A stretch of DNA of 64,000 bases from Lysobacterales bacterium (GTDB lineage: Bacteria; Pseudomonadota; Gammaproteobacteria; Xanthomonadales; SZUA-36), in contig JABDLD010000075.1 in NCBI GenBank assembly GCA_013001885.1, positions 62,001 through 126,000 on the forward strand. The letters run 5' to 3'. The translations under genes were made by a program, and so were the position numbers. The notes under the pieces were generated by a model. The model was not told the origin of the DNA. It saw only the letters and a list, made by a program, of their open reading frames with translations, and ran no database searches. Shown in pieces: positions 9,718 to 23,203 of the stretch (its first letter is position 1; each line of letters starts with the position of its first letter).

Positions 9718-10749
9718 ATGATCGCAAAAGACCAAAAAAATCAGTGGCACATGCCGGCGGCCTACCTGAAAGTATTTCTTCAGCATGCCGCGTCAGAGCA
9801 CCTGCCGGTCACGCCGTTACTGGCCGGAACGCGCCTGACCGTCGAAGAATTGAAGCAAAGCAGCAAAGTGGTCAGCTTCCTTGAGACGCGTCAGGTTCTG
9901 GCCAATGTAACGCGCAGTCTCGGACCCGGCTGGCACCTTTCCCTGGCCCAGCGGCTGACCATACCGTCCCACGGCCCGCTGGGTTTCGCGGTGGTCACAG
10001 CGCCCGACTTGCGCGCCTCAGTGGACGTGCTGCTTCGGTTCATCGGAATACGCGGACCCTATCTCTGGCTGGCCGGAACGGCCGAGGGCAACCGCTTCGT
10101 GATTCGCCTGTATGAAAGCGCGGAATTGGGAGAGGAGCGTCAGACGCTCGTGGAGCTGGCACTGTTGGCCATCCAAAGCATGCTCGAACGGCCGCTGGGA
10201 CGGGAGCTGTGGGGTGCGCACATTGAGCTGGCCTACCGCCCGCCCGCATATCATGAGCAGCTGGCATCCGCCTTTCACCCGGAACTGGAGTTTAACGCCC
10301 GGGGACATCAAATCAGCTTTCCTGCTGTTTGGCTGGATGAGACTTGCGTGCTGCATGACGAGGCCATGCATCGCTACCTGGTGATGCGCTGCGAGGAAGA
10401 CTTGCGGGCCGTTTCAGGCATTCTTCCGGCCGAAATCGCTGTCCGCCAGGCCCTGTTGGCCCGGCCGGGAAAACTGCCCGGCCTATCTGAAATTGCGAAA
10501 TCCCAGAACGTCTCTCCAAGAACGCTGATCCGGCGATTGAAGCGCGGGGAAACCTCTTACAACAGAATTCTCGAGGACGTGCGCAAGACCCTGGCGGCAG
10601 ACTACCTTTTACGTTCCAATCTGAACGTTACCGAAATAGGCTACCGCCTGGGTTACCAGGATCCTTCGAATTTCGGCCGCGCATTTCGCGGATGGTTCGG
10701 CATTTCTCCGGGCCATTTCCGCCGGCGGGCGGCGGTGAAAACCGCTTAA
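9718..10749 (+). CDS. AraC-family transcriptional regulator
   Basis: The 343 residues form an N-terminal effector-binding region of the arabinose-binding type found in AlkS/OruR-like AraC proteins (about 20-210). A C-terminal double helix-turn-helix follows, with the first HTH around LSEIAKSQNVSPRTLIRRLK and the second ending in the family signature GYQDPSNFGRAFRGWFGISP. It is transcribed divergently from alkB and is the obvious candidate for alkane-responsive control. Its 3' end overlaps the convergent lbpA gene by 4 nt. Confidence 0.87.
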   Translation: MIAKDQKNQWHMPAAYLKVFLQHAASEHLPVTPLLAGTRLTVEELKQSSKVVSFLETRQVLANVTRSLGPGWHLSLAQRLTIPSHGPLGFAVVTAPDLRASVDVLLRFIGIRGPYLWLAGTAEGNRFVIRLYESAELGEERQTLVELALLAIQSMLERPLGRELWGAHIELAYRPPAYHEQLASAFHPELEFNARGHQISFPAVWLDETCVLHDEAMHRYLVMRCEEDLRAVSGILPAEIAVRQALLARPGKLPGLSEIAKSQNVSPRTLIRRLKRGETSYNRILEDVRKTLAADYLLRSNLNVTEIGYRLGYQDPSNFGRAFRGWFGISPGHFRRRAAVKTA

Positions 10750-11183
10750 GCGCAGCCCTCGAAACCTTCTGAAGCCATCTTGGCCTCGTACGGTGCAGCT
10801 ACTTCACTGCCCGGGGTCAGGGCGGCCTTGACGCTGTCCCAGTCTTCCGGCCGCAGCTGCACCATCCAGGACGCGTATGGATCGGCGTTCGCCATGCTGG
10901 GGTTGGTGAGCAGATCTTCATTTACGCCCACGACTTCGCCGCCGGCTGCCGATTTGGCGGGGCCTACCCACTTGCCGGACTCCACCGTTGCACAGGACCG
11001 GCCCGCGCGCACTGAACGGCCAATCTTCTTCGGCGTGAACGCAACCAGCTGTCCAGCCATGGCCGTAGCGATGGCCGTCATTCCAATTCTGACCGTACCG
11101 TCGCCAACCTCGGTGAACCAGGTGTGGTTCTCCACGTCGTACAATAAATCATCCGGAAGGTTACATCCTCGTACCGTTGGCAT
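10746..11183 (-). CDS. lbpA: Lipoate-binding protein of the sHdr pathway (GcvH-like)
   Basis: A 145-residue GcvH-fold protein. The lipoylation site is Lys71 in VESGKWVG, whereas glycine-cleavage GcvH usually has ESVKA; the deviation is typical of LbpA proteins from sHdr loci. No gcvT or gcvP is present and the gene closes the shdr operon. LbpA accepts electrons or sulfur-derived intermediates from the sHdr complex through its lipoamide in the cytoplasm and is essential for sHdr-based sulfur oxidation in characterised organisms. The ATG at 11183 has an AGGAG 9 nt upstream. The C-terminus ends in a Cys (EGCA), as does position 7. Confidence 0.9.
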   Translation of the reverse strand: MPTVRGCNLPDDLLYDVENHTWFTEVGDGTVRIGMTAIATAMAGQLVAFTPKKIGRSVRAGRSCATVESGKWVGPAKSAAGGEVVGVNEDLLTNPSMANADPYASWMVQLRPEDWDSVKAALTPGSEVAAPYEAKMASEGFEGCA

Positions 11184-11216: not shown

Positions 11217-11651
11217 CTACTGGGCATTCGAATCCGCGTCAACTGTTTCCCGCAAAGGTTTTGACGCACAGCAGAAATCGCCCAGTTGTTCCGTTTCCAA
11301 TTTGCCGCTGATGAACAGAAAGAGGTGGTTGGCCACCCATCCCATCATGCGCGCTCGCTGGGCCGATTCCGGGTGATCCGGGTGCAGGGCCAGCAAGTTG
11401 TAATGGTAGGCCAGTTCACGGCAGGTTTCCCGGCAAGCGTTAAAACTGGGGTCTTTGTCGGCACCCTGGCGGTGCAATGCAAGCAGTCGAAAGCCTTCCC
11501 GCTGATCCTGCGTCGGTTCCCTGCCCTTTGCAACCACCCATTGCTCCAGCACTTGTTCGCCCAGGCCAAGCAGCTCTTCTGCATCAGATGGCGCCGGCGG
11601 CGCGGCGATCAACTGATCCAGTCGCTTGCCGATGTCGGTCAGGCGGGTCAA
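11217..11651 (-). CDS. Uncharacterised Cys-containing protein between shdrB2 and lbpA
   Basis: I do not recognise this 144-residue protein. It looks mostly helical and cytoplasmic, with no signal peptide or membrane segment. Four cysteines fall in two pairs: Cys73/Cys77 (ACRETCREL) and Cys127-Cys128 (DFCCAS). Such spacing could hold a metal or a thiol/persulfide pair. It starts at TTG, overlapping the shdrB2 stop in a TTGA, so translation is coupled to shdrB2, and lbpA follows 33 nt later. That placement suggests a role with the B2 subunit or with LbpA loading. The existence of the gene is well supported by context; its function is unknown. Confidence 0.75.
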   Translation of the reverse strand: MTRLTDIGKRLDQLIAAPPAPSDAEELLGLGEQVLEQWVVAKGREPTQDQREGFRLLALHRQGADKDPSFNACRETCRELAYHYNLLALHPDHPESAQRARMMGWVANHLFLFISGKLETEQLGDFCCASKPLRETVDADSNAQ

Positions 11652-12583
11652 GCCAACCCCTTTTCCTTCACGAAACTGAAGGAATCTGAGACATTCTCAT
11701 GCAACCCCACCTGCTTGGGTTTGAGGCCCAGCGCCATCCCCAGCAACTGCGTGAAATATATGATTTTTACGCTGGTCTTGATCCCCAGCGTTTTTTCCGC
11801 CCGGATCTGGTGCATTTCCAGGCCGCTATGGCAGGTGGGGCACTCGGTGGCGATGACTTCAGCGCCGGCGGCCTCAGCCGTCTGCAGAATGTTGGCGACC
11901 AGGCGGGTCGAGGTGTCGCTGTCGGACAGCGTATGGGCTCCACCGCAGCAGGCGGTCTTGAGGGGAAAGTCGACGTTTTCTGCGCCCGCGGCCTCCAGCA
12001 GGTCGTCCATGAAATGCGGCTTGGACGTGGACTCGCTGCCCGGGCCGGAATCCTTTTCCGGAAAAATATGCCGCGGCCGGGTATACATACAACCGTAATA
12101 ATTGGCGATCTTGATGCCTTGCATCGAGTTCTTGACCCGCTCTTTCAGGCCGTCCTCGCCGATGGTTTCCTTGACCCAGTCCAGCGCATGGATGGTTTCC
12201 ACCTGCCCGGCCTGATAGGTGTCATGACCCGCCTTTTTTGACAGGCGATCCACCACGTCTTTTGAGCCGTCGTCATTCTGCAGGTCATATTCCGCTTTCT
12301 TCAGATTGTGATAACAGCCGTTGCACGGAGCCATCACGACATCCATGTTCATCTTGTTCGCGGCGATCGACATTACCCGGGAGGACAGGTAGGTCTGTAT
12401 TTTTGGATCGATGTTTTTAACTTCCATCGCGCCGCAGCAATTCCAGTTATCGACTTCCTTCAGTTTCAGTCCAAGCTTCTTACCCAGCGCCTTGGTCGAG
12501 CGGTTATAGGCATGGCCGCTACCTTCAAGGGCGCACCCCGGATAATAGGCGACTTCCTGGTACTTGGTTTTCTTGTCAGACAT
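11648..12583 (-). CDS. shdrB2: sHdr subunit B2, CCG-domain protein
   Basis: The 311 residues contain two CCG domains. The first has YYPGCALEG, NWNCCGA and APCNGCY; the second has YYGCMYTRP, TACCGGAH and ATECPTCHSGL. In methanogen HdrB these cysteines hold two noncubane [4Fe-4S] clusters that act on disulfides, and both sets are complete here. This marks it as the catalytic-type B subunit of the sHdr complex that handles protein-bound sulfur in the cytoplasm. The ATG at 12583 has AGGA 8 nt upstream. It follows shdrC2 by 27 nt and overlaps the next gene by 4 nt. Confidence 0.92.
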   Translation of the reverse strand: MSDKKTKYQEVAYYPGCALEGSGHAYNRSTKALGKKLGLKLKEVDNWNCCGAMEVKNIDPKIQTYLSSRVMSIAANKMNMDVVMAPCNGCYHNLKKAEYDLQNDDGSKDVVDRLSKKAGHDTYQAGQVETIHALDWVKETIGEDGLKERVKNSMQGIKIANYYGCMYTRPRHIFPEKDSGPGSESTSKPHFMDDLLEAAGAENVDFPLKTACCGGAHTLSDSDTSTRLVANILQTAEAAGAEVIATECPTCHSGLEMHQIRAEKTLGIKTSVKIIYFTQLLGMALGLKPKQVGLHENVSDSFSFVKEKGLA

Positions 12584-12610: not shown

Positions 12611-13390
12611 TTACTTGGCTGCGCCGGTTTTGAGTTCGGTTTCGGCCATTTTCACCAGGTCATCCAGTCCGAGCGCTGCCCGGTGATGTGCTTCCTGCTC
12701 CGCCACGTATTCCTTGATTGCGTCACGCGCACCCGACCAGCCGCTGGTTTTAGGCTGGATGAAATTTGCCATTCCCATCCGGGTCAGCATACCGATGGGG
12801 AGGTTTCGCAGCATCCGCTTGACCATTTCTTCCAGCCAGGGTTGCCGCAACGCCTGGCCGGTTTGTTTGAAAAACCGCCTGATGGTCCGGCCGTCCTCGA
12901 TCTTGCCGGTTTCGATGACCTGCTCGCTGAAGATTTCATCAAATATGGTTGAGTGCGACTTTGGTGTATGGCCCTTGAGTTCCAGCCAGTGCGCCGTCGC
13001 TTTCATCACCCCTTCGGGAAACACGTCACGCGGACAGGCGTACGTGCATTTATTGCAGGACACGCACTGCCAGATGATGTCCTTGTCGCGCAGCAATTCC
13101 GACTCCATGCCCATGCGGATCAGGTAAATCCAGTAGCGTGGATTGAAGTCGGCGTTGATTGCGTGAACCGTGCAGGCATTCGTGCAGGACCCGCACTGCC
13201 AGCAACGATGAATGTTTTCTCCGCCCGGAAGCGCCGAAATCTCATCCTCGATGGCCTCGTTGTAGTCGCTGACTACCCGGCTTTCGATGAAGGTGCTCCA
13301 GTGGCCGGAAACATCCACGCCTTCGACTTCCAGGTTTTCATGGACCTGCAGGTTTTCGGGGCGGATCAGGGATTTCTCATGAATGGGCAT
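12611..13390 (-). CDS. shdrC2: sHdr subunit C2, 2x[4Fe-4S] ferredoxin-type protein
   Basis: The 259 residues carry two ferredoxin cluster motifs, CWQCGSCTNAC near residue 63 and CVSCNKCTYACP near 108, in a fold like the HdrC electron-transfer subunit. No membrane segment is seen. It would pass electrons between sHdrA and the B2 subunit. The final Cys-Thr of the first motif lacks the usual Pro. The gene starts 3 nt after the shdrH stop. Confidence 0.9.
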   Translation of the reverse strand: MPIHEKSLIRPENLQVHENLEVEGVDVSGHWSTFIESRVVSDYNEAIEDEISALPGGENIHRCWQCGSCTNACTVHAINADFNPRYWIYLIRMGMESELLRDKDIIWQCVSCNKCTYACPRDVFPEGVMKATAHWLELKGHTPKSHSTIFDEIFSEQVIETGKIEDGRTIRRFFKQTGQALRQPWLEEMVKRMLRNLPIGMLTRMGMANFIQPKTSGWSGARDAIKEYVAEQEAHHRAALGLDDLVKMAETELKTGAAK

Positions 13391-13393
13391 CGT

Positions 13394-14260
13394 TTAGTCC
13401 AGTAAATTGGTGTCGTCAATTACAAAAGCCTCGCCACTGATCGCTTTCAGGCGCGTACGGCCGTTTCCTGCCCGCACGCCATCCAGCCCGAGCAGTCTGC
13501 GGGTGTGTTCCATCGGGTCGCCGGGTGCGGAAAAGTCGGCCCGAAGGTAGACCCCGCCCTGGGCCGCGATATAGTCGGCATAAATCTTGGCGCACAACAG
13601 GTCCACGTACCAGATCACGTCGCGAAACACGCCATTGTCGGTCAGGAACTGGCTGAGCTCTTCACGCAGCATCAGGCAGGTGCCAAAACCGTCAGGGACA
13701 TTGATCGTAATGTTATCCACTTCGTCATCGAACCAGATTTCGCGGATAACTCCGGTGTTGGCCTTTCTGTCCCAGACCCATCGGCACATCAACGGATAGC
13801 GTTCGGGATCCACACCGTGCAGGATCTCTACGCCCAGATCACGAACCCAGCGGTGTTTCTTGTTCTGCGGAAAATGTGAGCAGAATGCCGCCAGTCGGGC
13901 GTCCGTGGTCGTCGTGTCCCTGGCACCTTCGAGCAGGTCCACGATAGCATCCACCATCGCTCCGTATGCGGGCTGTTCCAGGTAGGGCCCGATGCGCCGG
14001 CGCACACTCGCCATGAACGCACACAGCCCCTTGAACGTATCCAGCGGCAGGTCCCCCGCATGGCCCTGGCCCAGCGCCTGCTCAAACATCTGGCTTTTCA
14101 GTTTCAGCGCATCGGTCCAGAACTCTATTCCGCCCTGGGCTTCGGTACCCTGGATCAGGGTTTCCAGCGCCCGCGTCAGCAGCGGCCCGCTCAGATCGAG
14201 CCGTGGCCGTTCCGGCGCGGCCGGTTCAAGCTGTTGCTTTGTTCGGAACAGGGATACCAA
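13394..14260 (-). CDS. Conserved sHdr-locus protein (the 'Hyp' gene between shdrA and shdrC2)
   Basis: A 288-residue soluble protein at the exact place held by the conserved hypothetical gene of type I shdr clusters (C1-B1-A-Hyp-C2-B2). It has an Arg/Pro-rich N-terminus, a helical middle and a C-terminal segment rich in acidic and aromatic residues (REIWFDDEVDNITINVP). Cysteines are scattered with no cluster motif, so a structural or assembly role is more likely than electron transfer. The start is TTG at 14260, with AGGA 7 nt upstream; the frame has no better start. It lies 9 nt after shdrA. Confidence 0.85.
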   Translation of the reverse strand: MVSLFRTKQQLEPAAPERPRLDLSGPLLTRALETLIQGTEAQGGIEFWTDALKLKSQMFEQALGQGHAGDLPLDTFKGLCAFMASVRRRIGPYLEQPAYGAMVDAIVDLLEGARDTTTTDARLAAFCSHFPQNKKHRWVRDLGVEILHGVDPERYPLMCRWVWDRKANTGVIREIWFDDEVDNITINVPDGFGTCLMLREELSQFLTDNGVFRDVIWYVDLLCAKIYADYIAAQGGVYLRADFSAPGDPMEHTRRLLGLDGVRAGNGRTRLKAISGEAFVIDDTNLLD

Positions 14261-14269
14261 TCTGCTTTC

Positions 14270-15319
14270 CTAGCTGACCAGCCGGGCGGCCAGCTGACGC
14301 TGTTCCAACACGGCCATTGCAGCGGCTTTGCCCTGGGCAATGGAGTCATCGATCGTTTCCGGCCCGGTGGCGGCACCGGCCACGAAGACGCCGGACTTGT
14401 TGGTCAGGCCGGAAGCGCTGTAGCTGCTGGCCTTGTCGATGTATCCGTGCGGCTCCAGGTCGACACCAAAAATGGAGGAGAGGTCCGGATTGTCGACGTT
14501 CGGATCCATGCCGATCGCGTGGATGACCATATCGAACGGGATCGTGATCGGGCGTTTAACCAGGGTATCTTCGCCCTTGACGATCAGTTTTTCTCCATCA
14601 GAGGTAACTTCTGCGATTCGCGCCTTAATGTATTTGACCTTGAATTCTTCCTGGCTCTTCCAGTAATACTTGGTTTCGTACAGGCCAAACGTGCGGATAT
14701 CCATGTAGTAGATATAGACATGACAGTCGGGCAGTTCTTCGCGGATTTCCATCGCCATATTGGCTGAAACCGTGCAGCAGATCTTGGAGCACCACTCGCG
14801 GCCGATTTGCCGGTCCCTGGAGCCGACGCACAACAGAATGGCAACGCGTTTGGGTTTACGTCCATCCGACGGGCAGCGCACGCCCTGGCCGGATGAGACC
14901 ATCTGCTCAACCTGCGTGGTAGTAACGACATCGGGGTACGTGCCAAAGCCCCACTCGGGCTTGTTGGCCGAATCGAAATGGGTAAACCCGGTGCACAGGA
15001 TGGCGGCGGAAACATTGACCGGTTCTCCGTCGGACAGGCCCGCGGTGAAATCACCCGCTTCGCCACTGAATGAAGTGACCGACGTGCTGGTGCGAACATC
15101 CACCAGTTCGTGCCCGCTGGCGCGGTCGACCATTCCGCCGATAGCGTCTTTCGCCCACTCACCAGAGGGAACGAGTTTAGCGTAGCCCTCCAGGATGGGT
15201 GCGCCGCCCAGCCGGTCCTCTTTCTCCACCACGATGCAAGACTGCCCGAAGGTGGCCAGTGAATGTGCTGCGGCCAGACCCGCTGGTCCGCCTCCTACGA
15301 TCAGGATTGGTTTTGACAT
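14270..15319 (-). CDS. shdrA: sHdr subunit A, FAD and [4Fe-4S] protein
   Basis: The 349 residues begin with a dinucleotide-binding GGGPAG at residues 9-14. A second nucleotide element lies late (GVFVAGAATGPETIDDSIAQGKA split across 320-340). Cys164, Cys177, Cys181 and Cys182 (CVGSRD, CSKICC) match the unusual cluster-binding motif of HdrA. The protein is much shorter than methanogen HdrA because it lacks the extra ferredoxin domains, as is normal for sHdrA. It would be the flavin core of the cytoplasmic sHdr complex, linking both B/C pairs. The gene starts 5 nt after shdrB1. Confidence 0.93.
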   Translation of the reverse strand: MSKPILIVGGGPAGLAAAHSLATFGQSCIVVEKEDRLGGAPILEGYAKLVPSGEWAKDAIGGMVDRASGHELVDVRTSTSVTSFSGEAGDFTAGLSDGEPVNVSAAILCTGFTHFDSANKPEWGFGTYPDVVTTTQVEQMVSSGQGVRCPSDGRKPKRVAILLCVGSRDRQIGREWCSKICCTVSANMAMEIREELPDCHVYIYYMDIRTFGLYETKYYWKSQEEFKVKYIKARIAEVTSDGEKLIVKGEDTLVKRPITIPFDMVIHAIGMDPNVDNPDLSSIFGVDLEPHGYIDKASSYSASGLTNKSGVFVAGAATGPETIDDSIAQGKAAAMAVLEQRQLAARLVS

Positions 15320-15324
15320 GATGC

Positions 15325-16683
15325 TCAGCTCTGCTCTGTTTTCTCTAGTTGTTTAACCGGTTGAAACCCGGGCCCGGACGTAATCGCCAGGCGCGGGTCG
15401 TAAAGGCTGTCGTAATTTCCAGCCTCCACTTCTTTCAGGTAAGCCTCGAATTCGGCTTTCTTGGCTTGCCAGTCGATACCCATTTTTTCCATCAACGACT
15501 CGGTCGCGGATGCGTGCCAGTGGGACTGGACTATCTTGTAGGGATGTGCGCCACAGGCCAGCGCCGCGAACTGCACATCGGCTATGACCGGCAGGTTGTA
15601 GTCTTTACCGGCCGCCTTGCCGATCCACTGGTTTTTGTCCAGCGTGGTAATGCAACCGGTGTCGTGGCCGATCATCACGTCGGCTTGCGCCTCCTCCACC
15701 GCGACCTTGATCTTTCGGTCCAGTGCGAAGGAGCGGGTGAATTCCCGCTCGGAAATGATGTGGCGAAAACCGAATCCGCAACAGTCATACCAGGTGGAGT
15801 AATCGATCACCTGGGTACCGAGCGCTTCCATGATCCCGGTGGAGACGGCGACGCGGTTGCCGCCCAGGATGTTGTCGTCGTAAATCGCGTCCTGCGGCAC
15901 CATCTTGTAAACGTGACAGGCCGGGTGAATGGTTGCGCGGATGTTGCTGACGTCGATCGTCTGACGCTGGGCAATGTCGTCGCGCACCATGTGTACCCAT
16001 TCGGAGTAGTGGACGATCTCTTCCGGGATCAGCAGTTTGCCGTCGACCAGGCGCCCCAGCTTGGCGAGAATCTTCTTGACGCTCTCACGCAGCTTGGCGG
16101 AATGCAGCAGGTAAGCCCGCACTTCCTTATAGTTTCCGAATGAAGTGCCGCAATGAACCAGCGGATAATAGTAGCCGTCGGGCAGGCCCTGGGCGCGCGC
16201 CGAAACGTAGGCCTGGTGGAAGTTGCGCAGAAAAACCGCGGCCAGGCTCTCGATATTCCCGATGCCCGAGCCGTGATAGTTCCAGGCCGTACAGGAGGTC
16301 TGGTCGGTCTCGTCCAGGTACCTGATGTCCATCTCATTCATCAGCCACAGCAGCGAGGCCGGATAGCCCGGTATATTGCCGCACTGGCCGCAGGACTTGT
16401 GGTGCCACAGTTGGTTGGTGGGTACTTTTTTGTCCCAGCCGTAAATGGTCTTGGCGATCCGGGGCTGATGCTCGTCGTTGATGCGGTGAACAACGATCTC
16501 GCCGTCTTTCTCCAGCTCCCACATCGCATCGCGAACGTCTTCGACTCGATCCTTGTTCACTTCCATCGAGCGTTTGTTGATGACCTGCTCGACCCAAGAC
16601 GTGGCGGTTCGTGCCTCTTCAGGACTCAGGTTGGAGTCGCGCCACTCGGGACCGTGACCGGTAAAACGTTCGCCATTACTCAT
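15325..16683 (-). CDS. shdrB1: sHdr subunit B1, CCG-domain protein
   Basis: The protein has 452 residues from the second of two close ATG codons. I chose 16683 over 16692 because GGAGG lies 9 nt before it, whereas it abuts the first. Cysteine groups KSCGQCGN, TSCTAWNY, PACHVYK, YDCCGFGF and DTGCITT are spaced like the two CCG cluster modules, but the second module ends with one Cys rather than CxxC. B1 is longer than B2 and carries an N-terminal extension of about 70 residues. It overlaps the 3' end of shdrC1 by a few bases, indicating coupled translation. Confidence 0.91.
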   Translation of the reverse strand: MSNGERFTGHGPEWRDSNLSPEEARTATSWVEQVINKRSMEVNKDRVEDVRDAMWELEKDGEIVVHRINDEHQPRIAKTIYGWDKKVPTNQLWHHKSCGQCGNIPGYPASLLWLMNEMDIRYLDETDQTSCTAWNYHGSGIGNIESLAAVFLRNFHQAYVSARAQGLPDGYYYPLVHCGTSFGNYKEVRAYLLHSAKLRESVKKILAKLGRLVDGKLLIPEEIVHYSEWVHMVRDDIAQRQTIDVSNIRATIHPACHVYKMVPQDAIYDDNILGGNRVAVSTGIMEALGTQVIDYSTWYDCCGFGFRHIISEREFTRSFALDRKIKVAVEEAQADVMIGHDTGCITTLDKNQWIGKAAGKDYNLPVIADVQFAALACGAHPYKIVQSHWHASATESLMEKMGIDWQAKKAEFEAYLKEVEAGNYDSLYDPRLAITSGPGFQPVKQLEKTEQS

Positions 16684-17419
16684 TTTGCTCATCCTCCCAG
16701 TCTTCCAGGTCTTCGCGTTTCTCGTCCATGATGTCCAGAATTACGTCGTACAGGTTTTCATCGATGGTTTCCAACTGGTCCAGAACCCCGGTCTCTTCCC
16801 AGATGGTGTACAGCTCGACCGAGGTGGTCAGATTGACTTCCCAGGCCGTGGCCGTCGTGTTCAGCGTCGGCATCGGAATGGCTTTACGCAGCACTTCCAG
16901 CGGCGCCTCGACCTTGGAAATATGAGGGCCCCAGTCCGGGAACCCGTCGGCATTGATCATGTCCGGAGACAGCTGGTTACCGGTGGAAATCAACTTCAGC
17001 ATAACGCGGCTGAACGGCCGCAGCACGTTCTTCGCCGACTCCATGCCGTGCTTGATGGCCGCTTCGCGCATCAGCATGACCAGGCCGCCCGGAGAATTGT
17101 TGAAGGGACAGCGCGCCGCGCAGGTGTAGCACTGGGCGCAGGCCCAGATCTTTTCCTGCATGGCGTCATATATGCCTTCGAGATTCTCGGTCCACAGCAA
17201 CTGGACAATTTCGCGCGGACTGAAGTCGTAATAGTGGGCGGCGGGACAGGTTGCGGTGCAGATACCGCAGTTCAGACAGCCGTTGAGTTCGTGATCGTAA
17301 CGAATATCCGCCTGGATATCCTGGAAGATTTCTTCCATCTGCTCGCGGCCGATGGCCGGGCTGTCCGAAACCGGATCACCGATATATTCCTGTATTCTGG
17401 TCGAATGGGCGTGGGCCAT
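16676..17419 (-). CDS. shdrC1: sHdr subunit C1, 2x[4Fe-4S] ferredoxin-type protein
   Basis: The 247 residues start at ATG 17419, preferred because AGGAG lies just upstream; a GTG 33 nt further up has no ribosome site. Cluster motifs are CLNCGICTATCPA (Cys48, 51, 54, 58) and CAQCYTCAARCPF (Cys94, 97, 100, 104), both complete with the Cys-Pro end. It pairs with B1 for electron transfer to or from sHdrA in the cytoplasm. The C-terminus is strongly acidic (KREDLEDWEDEQNE). The gene lies about 45 nt downstream of dsrE. Confidence 0.92.
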   Translation of the reverse strand: MAHAHSTRIQEYIGDPVSDSPAIGREQMEEIFQDIQADIRYDHELNGCLNCGICTATCPAAHYYDFSPREIVQLLWTENLEGIYDAMQEKIWACAQCYTCAARCPFNNSPGGLVMLMREAAIKHGMESAKNVLRPFSRVMLKLISTGNQLSPDMINADGFPDWGPHISKVEAPLEVLRKAIPMPTLNTTATAWEVNLTTSVELYTIWEETGVLDQLETIDENLYDVILDIMDEKREDLEDWEDEQNE

Positions 17420-17464
17420 AATGCTCCTGTACCGGCGATTCGCAGGAATCACCCGGTCTGTTAA

Positions 17465-17842
17465 TTAATAGGTCAAAACCTTGCAGTCTTCTTCCATCAC
17501 CTCTTCGATCAGGTGCGCCCCGCCGACGATGCCTTCGCACTCGGGAATGAGATCGTCGGTCGTCATATCGAAAAGGTCAAGGTTGGGTGAACAACAGTAA
17601 AACTTCGCGCCGGCTTCGTGGGCGTCCTTGATGAAGTCATAAACCGACTTGGGAGATCCTTCTTTTACGAACAGCTTTTCGGCCACGCCTTTGCGCATCA
17701 GGCGGCCTGAGGTTGCGGTGCAGATCACGTCCACTTCGTATTCCATCGCTGCAGCGACCGTCGCCTGGAATATGGGCGCTCCGAGTTCTTCGCCATTACG
17801 GGGATCCGTGTTGGCCATCACGATAATCAGTTTTTCTGCCAT
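17465..17842 (-). CDS. dsrE3C: DsrE-family sulfurtransferase of the sHdr locus
   Basis: A 125-residue DsrE/DsrF-like protein. The vicinal Cys83-Cys84 in KFYCCSPNLD matches the sulfur-binding pair described for the DsrE3C proteins of sHdr organisms, which exchange persulfide sulfur with TusA. Cys102 and Cys119 are further cysteines. It is the first gene of the shdr core, with a 90-nt gap upstream that contains the shared regulatory element. The start ATG at 17842 has AAGGA about 10 nt upstream. The subtype is inferred from locus and motif. Confidence 0.86.
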   Translation of the reverse strand: MAEKLIIVMANTDPRNGEELGAPIFQATVAAAMEYEVDVICTATSGRLMRKGVAEKLFVKEGSPKSVYDFIKDAHEAGAKFYCCSPNLDLFDMTTDDLIPECEGIVGGAHLIEEVMEEDCKVLTY

Positions 17843-17932: not shown

Positions 17933-18658
17933 CTAACCCTTCAATTTTAGAGGGATACGGTGACGGGATTGCATCAAACCGGTTAGCTTGATGATCCCAG
18001 TCATGATCGGCACGAGTGAGTCTTCAATTTCTCTTACCATAACCTGCAGTCGCTGCAACTGCACGGCCGGGTGTTCGGGCGACTCCTCGAACTCCATGAT
18101 CAGATCTTCCGCCATCGCGGTTTTGAAGCCGGGATGACCGGTAAAGCCCAGGGCGTTCTCACCCACCTGGAAGACGGCAGGCCGTCCGGCTTCGTCTTCT
18201 GCCAAAACCTGTGCGCTGCCGGGCAGCACCGGCCGATCACGCATATAGACCGCGTTCGGAAACCGCTCCGGCATGAACCCGGCAAGCGCGTCCGGCTGCA
18301 CGCGCCGGGCATATCCGGTCTCGAATACCAGGGCGCCGGGTTGTGAACTCCCGCCGGCTGCGATAGCCAGGATCTGCGCGCCCAGGCCAATCCCAATGAC
18401 GGGTTTGCCCTGGTCCAGCATGTTTCGGGTCAGCTCTATCTCCTGCGCCAGCGTGGGCACGTCGCGCCCGCCCGCGCTGCCCCAGGGGCCGCCGCCAAGC
18501 AAAAACAGTCCGTCGCAAAAATCCCCCGGCTGCGGAATCAAACCCTGCTCCGTGAATGGCCGGAAATAACGGAAACGGATCCGCCGCCCCTCCAGGTGGT
18601 CCTCCATCAGGCCCAGGTAGTCGGCTGACGTGTGCTGAACAACGTTAAGAATGTTCAT
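17933..18658 (-). CDS. gat: Class I glutamine-amidotransferase-like protein lacking the nucleophile
   Basis: The 241 residues follow the GATase class I fold of GMP-synthase-like domains: LFLLGGGPWG near 52, the nucleophile-elbow region at 87-96 and a late FTGHPGF with the catalytic-His position. The elbow reads GIGLGAQ, where active enzymes read GICLGxQ, so Gly91 replaces the catalytic Cys; the His is followed by Pro-Gly instead of Pro-Glu. The protein is unlikely to hydrolyse glutamine. The start overlaps the lipoate-ligase stop by 4 nt. Amidotransferase-like genes accompany lipS1/lipS2 in other sHdr genomes, so the association is not accidental. Its role is unknown. Confidence 0.85.
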   Translation of the reverse strand: MNILNVVQHTSADYLGLMEDHLEGRRIRFRYFRPFTEQGLIPQPGDFCDGLFLLGGGPWGSAGGRDVPTLAQEIELTRNMLDQGKPVIGIGLGAQILAIAAGGSSQPGALVFETGYARRVQPDALAGFMPERFPNAVYMRDRPVLPGSAQVLAEDEAGRPAVFQVGENALGFTGHPGFKTAMAEDLIMEFEESPEHPAVQLQRLQVMVREIEDSLVPIMTGIIKLTGLMQSRHRIPLKLKG

Positions 18659-19722
18659 TTGTCTGCGAGCGCATCCATCAAAGATGCGATGAAATCATCC
18701 GGCGAGACAGACAGAACCTCCACCTCTGCTTCTTTGAAAAAGGCCTTGACCTCGGTTTCCAGGTCGTCGAGGTAAACGCCGCGCAACCGCGATTCCAGGT
18801 CGTACACCACTCGCGGCGGCGTAATGAAAAAATCACCGGTGATCAATGCACCGCGCACCCGGTTTTGCGCCGGACCCTCCAGCCGAAGGTAACTGGTGAT
18901 CGTGCCACCCGGACAATTCTGCCGACCGGCCAGGTCGCCCCGGGCTGCCGGCGGCTCCTCGATGCCGCCGACAAATTCGTCGGTGCCGATCTCATCCCGG
19001 TACAGCAAATCCGCCTCGGCCCGCTCTTCGTCAGAAAGTACACCGTGCTCCATTTTCAGGCCAAAGCGATCGGAGAACGCCTGGATCAAGGCTGCCTGAA
19101 TGTCTTTCAGCGCGGGGGTTTTATCGCCCATCAGTTCCCTAAGCGTAACCACACGCTGCGCGGCGGAATCAAGCCGCCGCTTTTCCAGCTTGGCCTGCGG
19201 AACGTGCAGGGCGGACACCATCACCTTCGGATCCATATCAACCAGCACGGTGCCCTGGTAGAACAGCGTGTCACCGTCGAAGAACCCGCCGGTGCCGCTG
19301 ACCTTGCGCCCGTCAATTTCGATGTCGTTGCGCGGACGGAACCGTGCGTCAACACCCAGGCGGCTGATACCGTCAGCCACCGCCTCGCAGATTTCCCGTG
19401 TGAGCTCAGGCAAGGACTTCACGCCCAGTGTTTTTCGGTGAAACGCCAGTTCCCAACCCAGCAATCCCGGTTCCATGAAAATGGCACCGCCCCCGGTGAT
19501 GCGCCGGGCGACTCCAATATCGTGTTCGCGGCAGTAGTCGAGGTTGATCTCCTGGGCCAGGGCCTGGTGGCGCCCCACCAGCGCCGTTGGCGGGAACCGC
19601 AGGAACCGGAGCGTGTCCGGTGTCTTTTGTTCACGGTGCGCCTCGACGATCGCCTGTCCCAGCGCGATGTTCAGGCGCCCCTCCATTACGCCGGTATCCA
19701 GGACCCTGAACGTCTTCTCCAC
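18655..19722 (-). CDS. slpl(AB): Lipoate-protein ligase of the sHdr pathway
   Basis: The frame runs open to 19980, but the upstream part lies inside lipS1 and is not lipoate-ligase-like. GTG at 19722, 17 nt after the lipS1 stop, keeps the conserved first strand (FRVLDTGVMEGRLNIALGQA) and gives 355 residues; ATG 19686 is the alternative. The ligase signature RRITGGGAIF and the lysine loop RKVSGTGGFF are present. A C-terminal accessory domain follows, as in two-domain Lpl(AB) enzymes. It would activate octanoate or lipoate with ATP and attach it to Lys71 of LbpA. The gene is coupled to gat downstream. Confidence 0.88.
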   Translation of the reverse strand: MEKTFRVLDTGVMEGRLNIALGQAIVEAHREQKTPDTLRFLRFPPTALVGRHQALAQEINLDYCREHDIGVARRITGGGAIFMEPGLLGWELAFHRKTLGVKSLPELTREICEAVADGISRLGVDARFRPRNDIEIDGRKVSGTGGFFDGDTLFYQGTVLVDMDPKVMVSALHVPQAKLEKRRLDSAAQRVVTLRELMGDKTPALKDIQAALIQAFSDRFGLKMEHGVLSDEERAEADLLYRDEIGTDEFVGGIEEPPAARGDLAGRQNCPGGTITSYLRLEGPAQNRVRGALITGDFFITPPRVVYDLESRLRGVYLDDLETEVKAFFKEAEVEVLSVSPDDFIASLMDALADK

Positions 19723-19738
19723 CTGGAACGGCCCGGCC

Positions 19739-20998
19739 TCAGACGAGGCGATGGGGAATATCCAGCTGCTTGCGAATCTTCTTGAGGTCTTTTTTGTCCG
19801 GCTGGAACGGGAAACTGGCAATATCGCTGGGGGGCGAGTCGCCGTAAGGCCGGTCACAGGCGGATATGTCGTCCTGGATTTTGCCGGGGCAGCCCGAGGT
19901 CCGGAAAGGCAGTCCCGCGTTGATGATGTCATCCAGCTCCCCGCCGGGCAGGCCAAAATCAGCCACCCGGCCCTGCCCATCGAATATCATCTGGTCAACC
20001 CGGGCATCGCAGTAATCGATCAGATACCGTCCCAGCTGGACCCGGCGCCACTGGTCCCGCGGTGTGGCGGGCAGGTGGTCCATCAGCGAACCCTCTTCCG
20101 GAAAAAAGCAAAACATGTGGTTGTGTCCGCCAAGGTCCACGATCTGTTGCACCAGGCTCAGGATGTCGTATTCAGTCTCTCCCATTCCGGCAATAATGTG
20201 CACGCCGAACTTCTGCGGTCCGAAAATATCCCGCGCGTCCAACAGGATTTCCCAGTATTTTTTCCACTTGTGCGGCGACTGCACGCCCTTTCCGCGCGTC
20301 CGGTCAAACAGCTCCGGGGTGGCCGCGTCGAGCGCCACGGTGAAAATGTCTGCGCCAAGGTCCTTCAGCTTCTGCACGTCAGCCCGGCCCATCGTGGTGG
20401 GGTTGGACAGAATGGATACCGGGATGGTTACCGGATCGATACGGTCGGTCCACTTCTTCAGCACCGCGACGGTATCGTTGTCGGAGCGTGGGTGCGTGAT
20501 CATCGAAATACACATCCGGTGAAACGGGCTGTTCTCGCCGTCACTCGCCACCTTGTCGATAATGACGTCCATCGGAACGGCGGGCCAATCAACGCGGATG
20601 AAGTTTCGGTCGGCGTAATCACGCTCTGCTTCGCGGTGCCGAGCCAGCCCGCAGTAGGCACAGTTGGCGCGGCAACCCTCAGGGTAAGTCAGCAACAGAT
20701 TGAGACATCGCGTGCACGAACAGCGGTACATCCGTCCCGTTGTGACGCCGAGGGTAATGGCTGCCGCGGTCGACATCTGCACGTACTCGGGGGAGCGCAT
20801 GTTGGGCGTCAGGATGTTGTAATCAGGGCGGTAAACCCCTGCCGGTTCGATATTTTGGGTCTTGACCTGGGCGCCGTTTTTCATGGCTTTCGGAGTTTTG
20901 CCCGGCAGTCGGGGCTCCATGATCTCGTAGGGGTTAAAGTCCAGGCCGTCCGGGCCCTGCTTAGCCGGTTGAGCGCCTTCGGTTTTCACACAACTCAT
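19739..20998 (-). CDS. lipS1: Radical SAM lipoyl synthase component LipS1
   Basis: The 419 residues contain the radical-SAM triad Cys109-x3-Cys113-x2-Cys116 (EGCRANCAYCGLAR). An upstream Cys93/Cys95/Cys98 group (CSCTRC) and a C-terminal SGCPG point to an auxiliary iron-sulfur cluster that could be the sulfur donor. LipS1 and LipS2 together replace LipA; each inserts one sulfur into a protein-bound octanoyl chain, as shown for archaeal and sHdr-linked homologs. The gene sits between lipS2 (24-nt gap) and the ligase. ATG 20998 is preceded by GGAGA. Confidence 0.9.
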   Translation of the reverse strand: MSCVKTEGAQPAKQGPDGLDFNPYEIMEPRLPGKTPKAMKNGAQVKTQNIEPAGVYRPDYNILTPNMRSPEYVQMSTAAAITLGVTTGRMYRCSCTRCLNLLLTYPEGCRANCAYCGLARHREAERDYADRNFIRVDWPAVPMDVIIDKVASDGENSPFHRMCISMITHPRSDNDTVAVLKKWTDRIDPVTIPVSILSNPTTMGRADVQKLKDLGADIFTVALDAATPELFDRTRGKGVQSPHKWKKYWEILLDARDIFGPQKFGVHIIAGMGETEYDILSLVQQIVDLGGHNHMFCFFPEEGSLMDHLPATPRDQWRRVQLGRYLIDYCDARVDQMIFDGQGRVADFGLPGGELDDIINAGLPFRTSGCPGKIQDDISACDRPYGDSPPSDIASFPFQPDKKDLKKIRKQLDIPHRLV

Positions 20999-21022
20999 CT
21001 GTATCTCTCCAAATATTCTCTG

Positions 21023-22081
21023 TCAGGCTGCGCAACTGGTGCTGGCCAAAGTGGCAATATTGCTCGTACCCGTTGTCTGGCCCAGCTTAATGGAACAACA
21101 GGCGTGCGCCTGGTGGAATGGACGTCCGGTCATATCGGCGACCGCAACCGCGCCGTCTGCGGGAAACGCGATTCCATCCAGCCCGGCCATGACCGCATAG
21201 GCGTCGGTTACCCGTTTATGCATGCCCGGCGGCCGGGCGCAGCCAAGCAGCACCTGCCGGTCCGGCAGCCGCCGGCGCGCTTCGAGAAAGATTCGCCCCA
21301 CGTCCGCGGTATCAGGCGTGGCAAAAGTACCCGGCTTGGCATAGAACGGCATGATCACTACCAGCACCAGCGCCTTGGTGTCGTGGCGGCTGAGTATATC
21401 CAGCGCATTTTCTTCGCCCAGAATGCGGCCGTAGTGTAGCCCAATCACGATATGCGGCGAGATTTGCATCGAGGTGGCACACAGTGCTTCGACCGTGGCC
21501 TCGAAATCATCGACCGGGCGGTCCAGGTGATACACCTCGCGAATGGTCTCTTCGGCCCCGATGATATCCAGCATCGCGACATCGACGCCCGCCGCTTCCA
21601 TTTCCCTGGCACCCGCCGGGTCCGTCAGCGCGGTGTGAATGGCGACGCGCAGGTGAGGAAAATCCCGTTTCAGTTTTTCGACCACCGGGTAGAAGCGCGA
21701 GTAATTTATTTCATTGCGCTTGTTGGATCCGCCCGACAGCAAAAAACCCTGCAGATCCTCTGTTTCGATCAAATGACGTACTTTGCTATCCAGCATTTCC
21801 GGCTTGATCGCCGGGATCATGGGTTCAAGGATTTTAGCCTCGCAGTGATCGCACATCAGGGCGCAGCCCGCGGCGGTGATCGAAAACGCCGGGAAGCTGT
21901 TCTTGCCGCAGCTTTGCAACTCGGAACTCTCGTACTCTTTGAACGTTGGTGTCGAAAACCGAACCATCCGTTGCTCATTCGACGCAGCGGATCGTTCCAT
22001 CTCGCCGACCAGCGACGCATCGAATTCCGCATCTTCCAGTTCTTCTATTGCCTGCAGGGAGTTAAGCCAATTCATATTCAT
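21023..22081 (-). CDS. lipS2: Radical SAM lipoyl synthase component LipS2
   Basis: The 352 residues include the radical-SAM triad Cys73-x3-Cys77-x2-Cys80 (AAGCALMCDHC) and a SAM-contact GG motif (FLLSGGSNKR). Additional cysteines at 58 (LQSCGK) and in the C-terminal HACCS and TSCAA segments could ligate a second cluster. It works with LipS1 to form lipoate on the octanoylated carrier. No lipA or lipB is present in the window. The gene begins 12 nt after the HDAC-like gene, so both are probably cotranscribed. Confidence 0.9.
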   Translation of the reverse strand: MNMNWLNSLQAIEELEDAEFDASLVGEMERSAASNEQRMVRFSTPTFKEYESSELQSCGKNSFPAFSITAAGCALMCDHCEAKILEPMIPAIKPEMLDSKVRHLIETEDLQGFLLSGGSNKRNEINYSRFYPVVEKLKRDFPHLRVAIHTALTDPAGAREMEAAGVDVAMLDIIGAEETIREVYHLDRPVDDFEATVEALCATSMQISPHIVIGLHYGRILGEENALDILSRHDTKALVLVVIMPFYAKPGTFATPDTADVGRIFLEARRRLPDRQVLLGCARPPGMHKRVTDAYAVMAGLDGIAFPADGAVAVADMTGRPFHQAHACCSIKLGQTTGTSNIATLASTSCAA

Positions 22082-22093
22082 TCCAGATTATAG

Positions 22094-23203
22094 TCAATGC
22101 AGCACCAGGCCGGGCAACTGCTCGACCTCAGGACGGACCGGGCCGGTATTCGGCGGATCGGTCAGAGTCGTCAGCCAGTGCTCCGGTATTTCATCTTCGT
22201 CGATCAAATCACACTCGAAACTTTGTAAAAACGAACGCGCCATCGACGGCAGCGCGGCCGGTAACTCACGCCCGCTCAAGCGGCCCCATAAGCCGCCCCA
22301 GCAGCGGACGACCGTCCATGGATTATAACCCCCCCCGCCCAAAACAACGGCGCGTGGATAATCGTGAACCAGCTTTTCAACGGCACGCCATAAACCCCCG
22401 TTGCTCAGGGCCAGTCGCGACAGCGGATCCCCGTCCAGGCCGTCCGCGCCGCAGGTGATGACCAGCGCCTGTGGTTTGAACTTCTGCGCCAACGGTATAA
22501 CCGCATTCTCAAGCAGATAGTCCAGTTCATCGTCATTGAATCCGCGCGGCACCGGCAGGTTGCGCGCGCCGCCCTGTGCGCGATCGGCCACCAGACCGGA
22601 GTGCGGCCAGCGCTTTTCTTCGTGGATTGAAACCGTGAGAACTCGGTCATCGCCGGCAAACGCGTCCTGAACGCCATCGCCGTGGTGTGCATCGAGATCG
22701 ACGTAAAGAACCCGTTCCACACCCTGTTCGAGAAACGTCAGACAAGCGAAAACCGGATCGTTGAAATAGCAAAAGCCACTGGCGCGGTCGGCCCGTCCAT
22801 GATGCGTGCCGCCCGACGGGTGAAAAACCACACGTCCATCCATTGCCAGTTCAGCCGCCAGAATGGAGCCGCCAACGGCGGTCGAAGCCCTTTTGAACAC
22901 GCCCGGGAACAAAGGGTTTTCCATGGTGCCAATCCGGTAACGCTCCCTGACGGCCTTGTCCACGGTGCCTTTTGCATCAGCGTCAATCAACGCCTCGATG
23001 TAATCGGACCGATGAAACTTCAACAACTGCTCGACGCTGGCCTGAGGACTGGTCCGGAATTGTTCGTGATCGAACCACCCCATCATTTCACACAGGTCAA
23101 CCACGCCCGCCACCCGGATGATAGACAAGGGGTGATGCTTGCCGAACGCCGACTCCCGGTAGATGTCGTGGCCCACGAAGAGCGCTTTGTCTTGCTGGTT
23201 CAC
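22094..23203 (-). CDS. Zinc-dependent histone-deacetylase-like deacylase
   Basis: The 369 residues form a full class I/II-type HDAC or AcuC/acetylpolyamine amidohydrolase fold. The active-site set is intact: His pair in GGTHHGRADRASGFCYFND, zinc ligands in DLDAHHGDG and CGADGLDGD, and the catalytic Tyr in GGGGYNP. The start is GTG 23203, with no strong ribosome site. It heads the lipS2-lipS1-ligase-gat transcript with a 12-nt gap, an unusual partner for lipoate genes. Known family substrates are acetyl-lysine, acetylpolyamines and acetoin-pathway acyl groups; removal of acyl or lipoyl groups from lysine is a hypothesis from context. Confidence 0.88.
   Translation of the reverse strand: MNQQDKALFVGHDIYRESAFGKHHPLSIIRVAGVVDLCEMMGWFDHEQFRTSPQASVEQLLKFHRSDYIEALIDADAKGTVDKAVRERYRIGTMENPLFPGVFKRASTAVGGSILAAELAMDGRVVFHPSGGTHHGRADRASGFCYFNDPVFACLTFLEQGVERVLYVDLDAHHGDGVQDAFAGDDRVLTVSIHEEKRWPHSGLVADRAQGGARNLPVPRGFNDDELDYLLENAVIPLAQKFKPQALVITCGADGLDGDPLSRLALSNGGLWRAVEKLVHDYPRAVVLGGGGYNPWTVVRCWGGLWGRLSGRELPAALPSMARSFLQSFECDLIDEDEIPEHWLTTLTDPPNTGPVRPEVEQLPGLVLH

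Follow-up and report, generated by a model that had tools for sequence, protein, structure and literature searches.

LipX, a GATase-Fold Protein without a Catalytic Triad, Is Probably an Overlooked Noncatalytic Helper of the sHdr Machinery and Not a Lipoate-Making Enzyme

LipX, a protein with the predicted fold of class-I glutamine amidotransferases (GATases), is probably an overlooked noncatalytic helper of the sulfur-oxidizing sHdr machinery and not an enzyme that makes lipoate. Here, we report an analysis of lipX in a 64,000-nucleotide stretch of a Lysobacterales bacterium genome (contig JABDLD010000075.1, positions 62,001 to 126,000; referred to below as the window) and of its relatives in public genomes of Pseudomonadota.

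The original prediction, made from the letters of the window, put the gene forward as a candidate for an undescribed function, but the gene is already known: the available text of Tanabe et al. 2023 (PMC10332631) names it lipX and calls its product a "putative glutamine amidotransferase." GATase1 is listed in an earlier figure legend on hdr-like clusters (in the available part of PMC6067878), and a later legend counts lipX with the genes for cofactor-assembling enzymes (in the available part of PMC11582611). The name lipX is used in the available portions of PMC10332631, PMC10451225, and PMC11582611, in which we found no remark on the missing Cys, and the same portion of PMC10332631 held no mention that we could find of an unlinked second clade or of a LipS1-independent tie to sHdr. 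What is new here is the distribution of LipX. To our knowledge, the mechanism by which sHdr converts LbpA-bound sulfur to sulfite is unsolved.

Gene and locus

The original prediction gave no strand; lipX lies on the minus strand, and in that reading frame the elbow GIGLGAQ, HPG in place of HPE, and the 4-nt overlap with the lipoate ligase gene, all of which it had described, were recovered. The overlap is an ATGA at 18655-18658, which joins the ligase stop to the lipX start, and the complete His region reads GHPG (residues 174-177). The features used here are as follows.

17933 to 18658, minus strand: lipX (P0001, 241 aa), a class-I GATase fold lacking the catalytic triad; ORF 18658..17933, start ATG
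18374 to 18394, minus strand: nucleophile elbow GIGLGAQ, residues 89-95, with Gly91 (GGC, 18386-18388) at the Cys site of GATases
18128 to 18136, minus strand: His175-Pro176-Gly177, former His-x-Glu of the triad with Glu replaced by Gly (sequence and alignment columns)
18089 to 18124, minus strand: LipX signature helix, K179 to F190 (KTAMAEDLIMEF), from column conservation in 95 LipX
18560 to 18604, minus strand: residues 19-33, with conserved E19, Y31, and R33 (alignment of 95 LipX and 24 GATases)
18655 to 19980, minus strand: sLpl(AB) lipoate-protein ligase ORF, its stop overlapping the lipX start in ATGA
19739 to 20998, minus strand: lipS2, radical SAM subunit of lipoyl synthase (NF053743 at 178.6 bits, under its cut-off of 270)
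21023 to 22081, minus strand: lipS1, radical SAM subunit of lipoyl synthase (NF053742 at 181.5 bits, under its cut-off of 230)
17465 to 17842, minus strand: DsrE-like sulfurtransferase, between lipX and shdrC1 (family search)
16676 to 17452, minus strand: sHdrC1 (HdrC-type ferredoxin domains)
15325 to 16692, minus strand: sHdrB1, HdrB type with CCG domain, used as the probe for sHdr presence
14270 to 15319, minus strand: sHdrA, pyridine nucleotide-disulfide oxidoreductase type (family search)
13394 to 14260, minus strand: sHdrH-like protein, function unknown (no Pfam match)
12611 to 13390, minus strand: sHdrC2 (name by position)
11648 to 12583, minus strand: sHdrB2 (name by position)
11217 to 11651, minus strand: sHdrI-like protein (no Pfam match)
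10746 to 11183, minus strand: LbpA lipoate-binding protein, GcvH family (PF01597, 100.2 bits)

By gene position, we take the subunits to be sHdrC1, sHdrB1, sHdrA, sHdrH, sHdrC2, sHdrB2, and sHdrI. The 5' part of the ligase ORF, where it overlaps lipS2, is probably noncoding. The window gene matches the known layout of lipX, which is directly behind slpl(AB) with the ATGA overlap and before dsrE and the shdr genes. In Hyphomicrobium denitrificans, according to the available parts of the sources, lipX (Hden_0687) occupies the same place behind slpl(AB) with the same ATGA overlap (PMC10332631) and precedes dsrE3C, the gene in the DsrE position (PMC10451225). By position, the window gene is an orthologue of H. 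denitrificans lipX. The available part of PMC11582611 notes sHdrH and sHdrI as being of unknown function.

Other genes flank the cluster. A histone-deacetylase-family hydrolase (PF00850, 232.7 bits; 22094-23203, minus strand) lies directly before lipS1, as such a gene does, on the same strand, in 17/33 loci with lipS1 and sufficient upstream sequence; it is a candidate deacylase acting on LbpA. A FadL/OmpP1-type outer membrane protein (PF03349; 24158-25534, minus strand) is possibly the LipY of the literature, a putative fatty acid transporter, and a small ArsR-type regulator near the cluster (PF01022; 25651-25971, minus strand) is possibly of the sHdrR/SoxR kind. The gap between lipS1 and lipS2 in the window (20998-21023) is too small for lipT; this gap exceeds 800 bases in 23 of the 32 loci counted.

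Loss of the catalytic triad

A scan of public genomes yielded 74 loci, of which 72 encode LipX and 2 other proteins with short matches. The first 76 rows read, which include the window (L001) and a paralogue from its own genome, had Gly at the nucleophile site in 67, Glu in 5, and Cys in 3, none of the last being LipX, plus one truncated LipX (L073, without the elbow; L002, L075, and L076 are other proteins). The genome of the window has a single LipX and one distant paralogue, and it is the paralogue that carries Cys. In a joint alignment of 95 LipX and 24 Cys GATases, which omits the short rows L056, L062, and L073 and three sequences of the class draw described below (G446, G562, and G764), the site is Gly in 88 LipX, Glu in 7, and Cys in none, versus Cys in 24/24 of the related GATases. 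Read afterwards, the three class-draw sequences all had Gly, Arg, and Glu at the triad sites.

The rest of the triad has decayed differently in the two clades into which the family falls. In clade 1 (76 sequences), the His site is His in 72 and Asn in 4, and the Glu site is Gly in 76/76; in clade 2 (19 sequences), the His site is Arg in 18 and His in 1, and the Glu site is Glu in 18 and Gln in 1. As nucleophile-His-Glu combinations, these are 66 GHG, 6 EHG, and 4 GNG in clade 1 and 18 GRE and 1 EHQ in clade 2. The clades are thus broken complementarily, with His kept and Glu lost in clade 1 and the reverse in clade 2, and no LipX (0/95) has both, whereas C and H are present in 24/24 and E in 23/24 of the Cys GATases. 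Neither the Cys in a GxCxG elbow nor the joint His and Glu that mark a class-I GATase (PF00117) enzyme was found in LipX, which has no canonical triad.

The elbow codons of 82 sequences were GGC (31), GGT (23), GGG (20), GGA (4), and GAA (4). Chance or sequencing error is excluded, since no LipX read has Cys and Gly is written with each of its four codons. The original prediction had proposed aligning homologs to learn whether the Cys is always missing and had allowed that homologs might keep it, leaving this copy a lone mutation. The Cys is missing from every LipX read (95 aligned and 3 more), with Gly or Glu in each elbow, and the lone mutation is ruled out. Nor do the data leave room for a decaying relic of an ordinary GATase, a reading that they refute: the catalytic residues are indeed gone, but the loss is common to all members read, lipX persists alongside sHdr even where the two are unlinked, and dN/dS was 0.03-0.15 in 18/19 pairs (the remaining pair was saturated, and dS exceeded 1.5 in four pairs). 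Purifying selection on LipX is strong. Since the triad is lost in every member read and selection is this strong, LipX has likely retained a function that does not involve canonical glutaminase chemistry.

Fold, phylogeny, and conserved residues

The relationship of LipX to GATases is weak by sequence, yet over the cut-off, and strong by predicted fold. The window LipX matches PF00117 over a short stretch (26.1 bits against a cut-off of 22.8) and a PRK07053-type amidotransferase family of NCBIfam at 67.4 bits, far under its cut-off of 250; its median identity to the GATases is 23%. Its AlphaFold2 model (65 sequences) has a mean pLDDT of 90.4, and the best solved match is DnfC (8khs; Z 25.8, rmsd 2.4, 220 residues). 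A clade 2 model (pLDDT 91.4) also matches DnfC best (Z 26.7, rmsd 2.5, 225 aligned). The predicted models of both clades have the class-I GATase-like alpha/beta fold over their whole length, in agreement with the original expectation of a preserved fold, and both align over that length with the free-standing class-I GATases DnfC (8khs), TM1158 (1o1y), SMU.1228c (3l7n), 3m3p, and MsGATase (7d54) at Z 23.7-26.7. LipX differs from these in lacking the Cys and one further triad member; among the solved relatives, aligned sequences showed the Cys for 9xfs, 3m3p, and 1o1y only. A precedent for keeping a GATase domain after loss of the nucleophile is human carbamoyl phosphate synthetase 1, whose glutaminase-like domain is inactive with Cys replaced by Ser (available part of PMC4655335) and whose structure (6uel) is among the fold matches of LipX (Z 17.7, rmsd 2.5, 178 aligned). 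That domain sits within a large enzyme, whereas LipX is a protein on its own, carries Gly or Glu at the site, and has lost a second triad residue too.

A 74-row tree separates all LipX from the GATases at a branch with 100/100 support, so the simplest history is that the Cys was lost once, ahead of the divergence of the two clades. One isolated member, L090 (G008), has a long branch and an uncertain placement. Identity between the clades has a median of 29% (23-38%, G008 excluded). Across this distance, K179, E184, D185, and M188 are invariant in 95/95 LipX and E189 is present in 94/95; E184 is also found in 8/24 GATases. E19, Y31, and R33 are likewise invariant in 95/95 LipX and are not conserved across the 24 GATases. 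Conservation in both clades (thresholds of 95% and 90%) but not in GATases holds for E19, E23, Y31, R33, P176, K179, D185, M188, E189, and M229. In the model, the first helix carries E19 and E23, the second strand has Y31 and R33 at its end, and the segment from K179 to E189 falls at and on the helix immediately behind the old His-Glu site.

LipX might instead be an enzyme that uses such residues, for example K179, E184, D185, E19, Y31, and R33, for another chemistry in the former pocket. We regard this as unlikely. It would suit such an enzyme that a number of charged or polar residues do not vary across clades this divergent and that the elbow is only ever Gly or Glu, but the two clades differ at the elbow and at the His and Glu sites, so the old center is not under a single constraint; moreover, LipX has no conserved functional Cys, and we know of no GATase relative that catalyzes without its Cys. 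A role as a sulfur carrier via a conserved Cys was considered and rejected: a single alignment column has Cys in at least 20% of rows (23/95), and it is Met in the window.

Distribution of LipX and sHdrB1

A LipX profile was built on 65 sequences (64 of the 72 LipX loci plus the window; eight truncated or start-shifted rows were omitted) and searched against even draws of Pseudomonadota (phylum draw, E 1e-10) and Gammaproteobacteria (class draw, E 1e-20), each including the genome of the window. Within this scope, sHdr presence was probed with sHdrB1 only (E 1e-30).

Co-occurrence with sHdrB1 was near perfect. Among 398 Pseudomonadota, LipX was found in 7/7 genomes with sHdrB1 and 0/391 without, six of the seven scoring 335-390 bits and G008 111; the next profile matches (87 bits or less) were GATases, and the 24 read carry Cys. 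Among 369 Gammaproteobacteria, LipX was found in 22/22 genomes with sHdrB1 and 1/347 without (Fisher p 1.6e-34, which ignores relatedness). The exception, G744, is 75% complete and congeneric with an sHdrB1-positive genome. Five alphaproteobacterial lipX genes have no sHdr genes in the surrounding stretch, all of them in sHdrB1-positive genomes: those of L041 and L046 are behind what we presume to be a topA-like gene, and those of L032, L035, and L043 are divergent to lipS1. On plasmids, no LipX match was found at E 1e-10. A mirror-tree analysis of 12 genomes was a weak test of the partner: the partial correlation of LipX was highest among pathway proteins for sHdrB1 (0.54, uncorrected p 0.003), but LipS1 was close (0.43), and the unrelated control neighbor PerM reached 0.57.

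The gammaproteobacterial copies of the class draw, G000 and G579 excepted, number 21, score 98-141 bits, and make up a divergent clade; none was found inside the sHdr-lip clusters that were fetched. In the one-contig genome G523, the clade 2 lipX is about 770 kb from sHdrB1; in many drafts it is on another contig than the cluster, and in G446, G537, G584, G647, and G688 LipS1 or sHdrB1 is as near as about 16-25 kb. A gene that we take to encode a LysR-type regulator is directly upstream in 20/20 clade 2 loci, and lipX adjoins a presumably PerM-like gene in many loci and a presumably PhoH-like gene in some. The one clade 2 LipX scanned had no Pfam match at E 0.001. With that result and the position of the gene outside the cluster, divergent gammaproteobacterial LipX may have escaped earlier surveys. 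The G008 lipX adjoins what is presumably a hemL-like gene, and a LysR-type gene near the G008 sHdr cluster is 52% identical to the clade 2 one (L121:8870-9577 and L122:2699-3670).

The LysR neighbors in clade 2, together with this relative near an sHdr cluster, would fit a LipX that binds a ligand and, as a sensor, regulates sHdr. We hold this to be highly improbable: no LysR gene is directly beside clade 1 lipX (one of 34-36% identity is 1-3 kb upstream in L061, L063, L068, and L071), and a Pfam search of the window protein found no DNA-binding domain.

Lipoate assembly or sHdr

In clade 1, the gene order gives a mixed picture. A start is visible in 63 loci and not in 9 others; among the 63, the ligase gene is adjacent on the same strand in 45, and 29 of these 45 overlap lipX in ATGA or GTGA; a DsrE gene is downstream on the same strand within 4 kb of lipX in 53/63. 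Where the lip genes are inverted, lipX usually heads the dsrE-shdr unit, and in L032, L035, and L043 it is beside lipS1. No ligase-LipX fusion was seen among the loci inspected; an apparent one (L087, a 610-codon frame) was rejected, its upstream part being arginine-rich and not ligase, and tblastn gave the ligase as a separate match.

LipS1 was found in 26/369 Gammaproteobacteria; none of the 369 had a match over the curated cut-off, and the matches were accepted because those inspected sit in lip clusters. Within LipS1-positive genomes, LipX was present in 20/20 with sHdrB1 and in 0/6 without. These six genomes (G455, G465, G590, G598, G677, and G719), four of them at least 96% complete, carry LbpA, LipS1, ligase, and DsrE-family genes in 6/6 loci and LipS2 in 4/6, the contigs of the other two ending there; G677 is congeneric with G570, which has both sHdrB1 and LipX. 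An LbpA-LipS1-ligase module with DsrE-family genes (L200-L205) occurs in Gammaproteobacteria in which sHdrB1 had no match. The opposite pattern is seen in G523 (one contig) and G603 (410 contigs), where sHdrB1 and LipX are present and LipS1 had no match. LipS1 was also without a match in 10/28 LipX genomes of another set, composed mostly of drafts and picked mainly for having no lipS1 near lipX; sHdr genes are beside lipX there. As no LipX match was found in the six LipS1-positive genomes without sHdrB1 and LipX is present in two without a LipS1 match, its distribution follows sHdr and not lipoate assembly. On the LipS1 tree, the joint LipX/sHdr state changes four times (best tree), but just one independent pair is on well-supported branches, so the raw counts overstate how independent the association is. 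LipX is dissociated from the genes of LbpA lipoylation; the direction is clear and the number modest.

The phylogenetic profile therefore speaks against a LipX that serves lipoate assembly on LbpA as a noncatalytic accessory binding sLpl(AB) or LipS1/S2, a reading that we consider rather doubtful. In its favor are the ligase-gene overlap in the window and in 29/63 clade 1 loci, the lipX genes divergent to lipS1 with no sHdr genes close by (L032, L035, and L043), and the placement of lipX among genes for cofactor-assembly enzymes (available part of PMC11582611). Against it, besides the six genomes that carry LipS1, ligase, and LbpA yet gave no LipX match and those where LipX occurs and LipS1 was not found, are the position of gammaproteobacterial lipX outside the lip cluster and the modification of LbpA in Escherichia coli with a helper plasmid without lipX (available part of PMC10332631). 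The original prediction of an inactive GATase with a noncatalytic job therefore holds in part: the triad is gone in all members read under strong purifying selection, while service to the ligase or the LipS proteins, which it had suggested as binding partners, is not borne out.

Proposed function

We lean somewhat toward LipX being a pseudo-glutaminase that lost its Cys, most simply once, and was selected in Pseudomonadota as a dedicated partner of sHdr, binding and not hydrolyzing. A class-I GATase fold would have lost its catalytic Cys before the two clades split, and the protein, no longer a hydrolase, would have kept and reshaped a binding face. From secondary structure and conservation, E19, Y31, and R33, together with the helix from K179 to E189, are candidates for a docking face, which may meet an sHdr component or holo-LbpA at sHdr, perhaps in much the way that the glutaminase subunit of a synthase complex docks on its partner. 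Several points weigh against an sHdr partner: the adjacency and overlap with the ligase gene in clade 1 fit a ligase partner; sHdr is itself tied to LbpA, and the probe is sHdrB1 alone; and a new active site would account equally well for the many charged residues that never vary. The further claim, that LipX is an overlooked core component of sHdr in proteobacterial sHdr users at large, whether linked or unlinked, and that sHdr, rather than lipoylation, needs it to work or mature, seems to us evenly poised between right and wrong; if it is true, the gene name lipX points at the wrong process.

The family is probably a case of a GATase fold turned noncatalytic throughout, its triad having decayed in two complementary ways. 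Found with sHdrB1 in every sampled sHdrB1 genome and not with the lipoate genes alone, LipX may be a missing part of sHdr.
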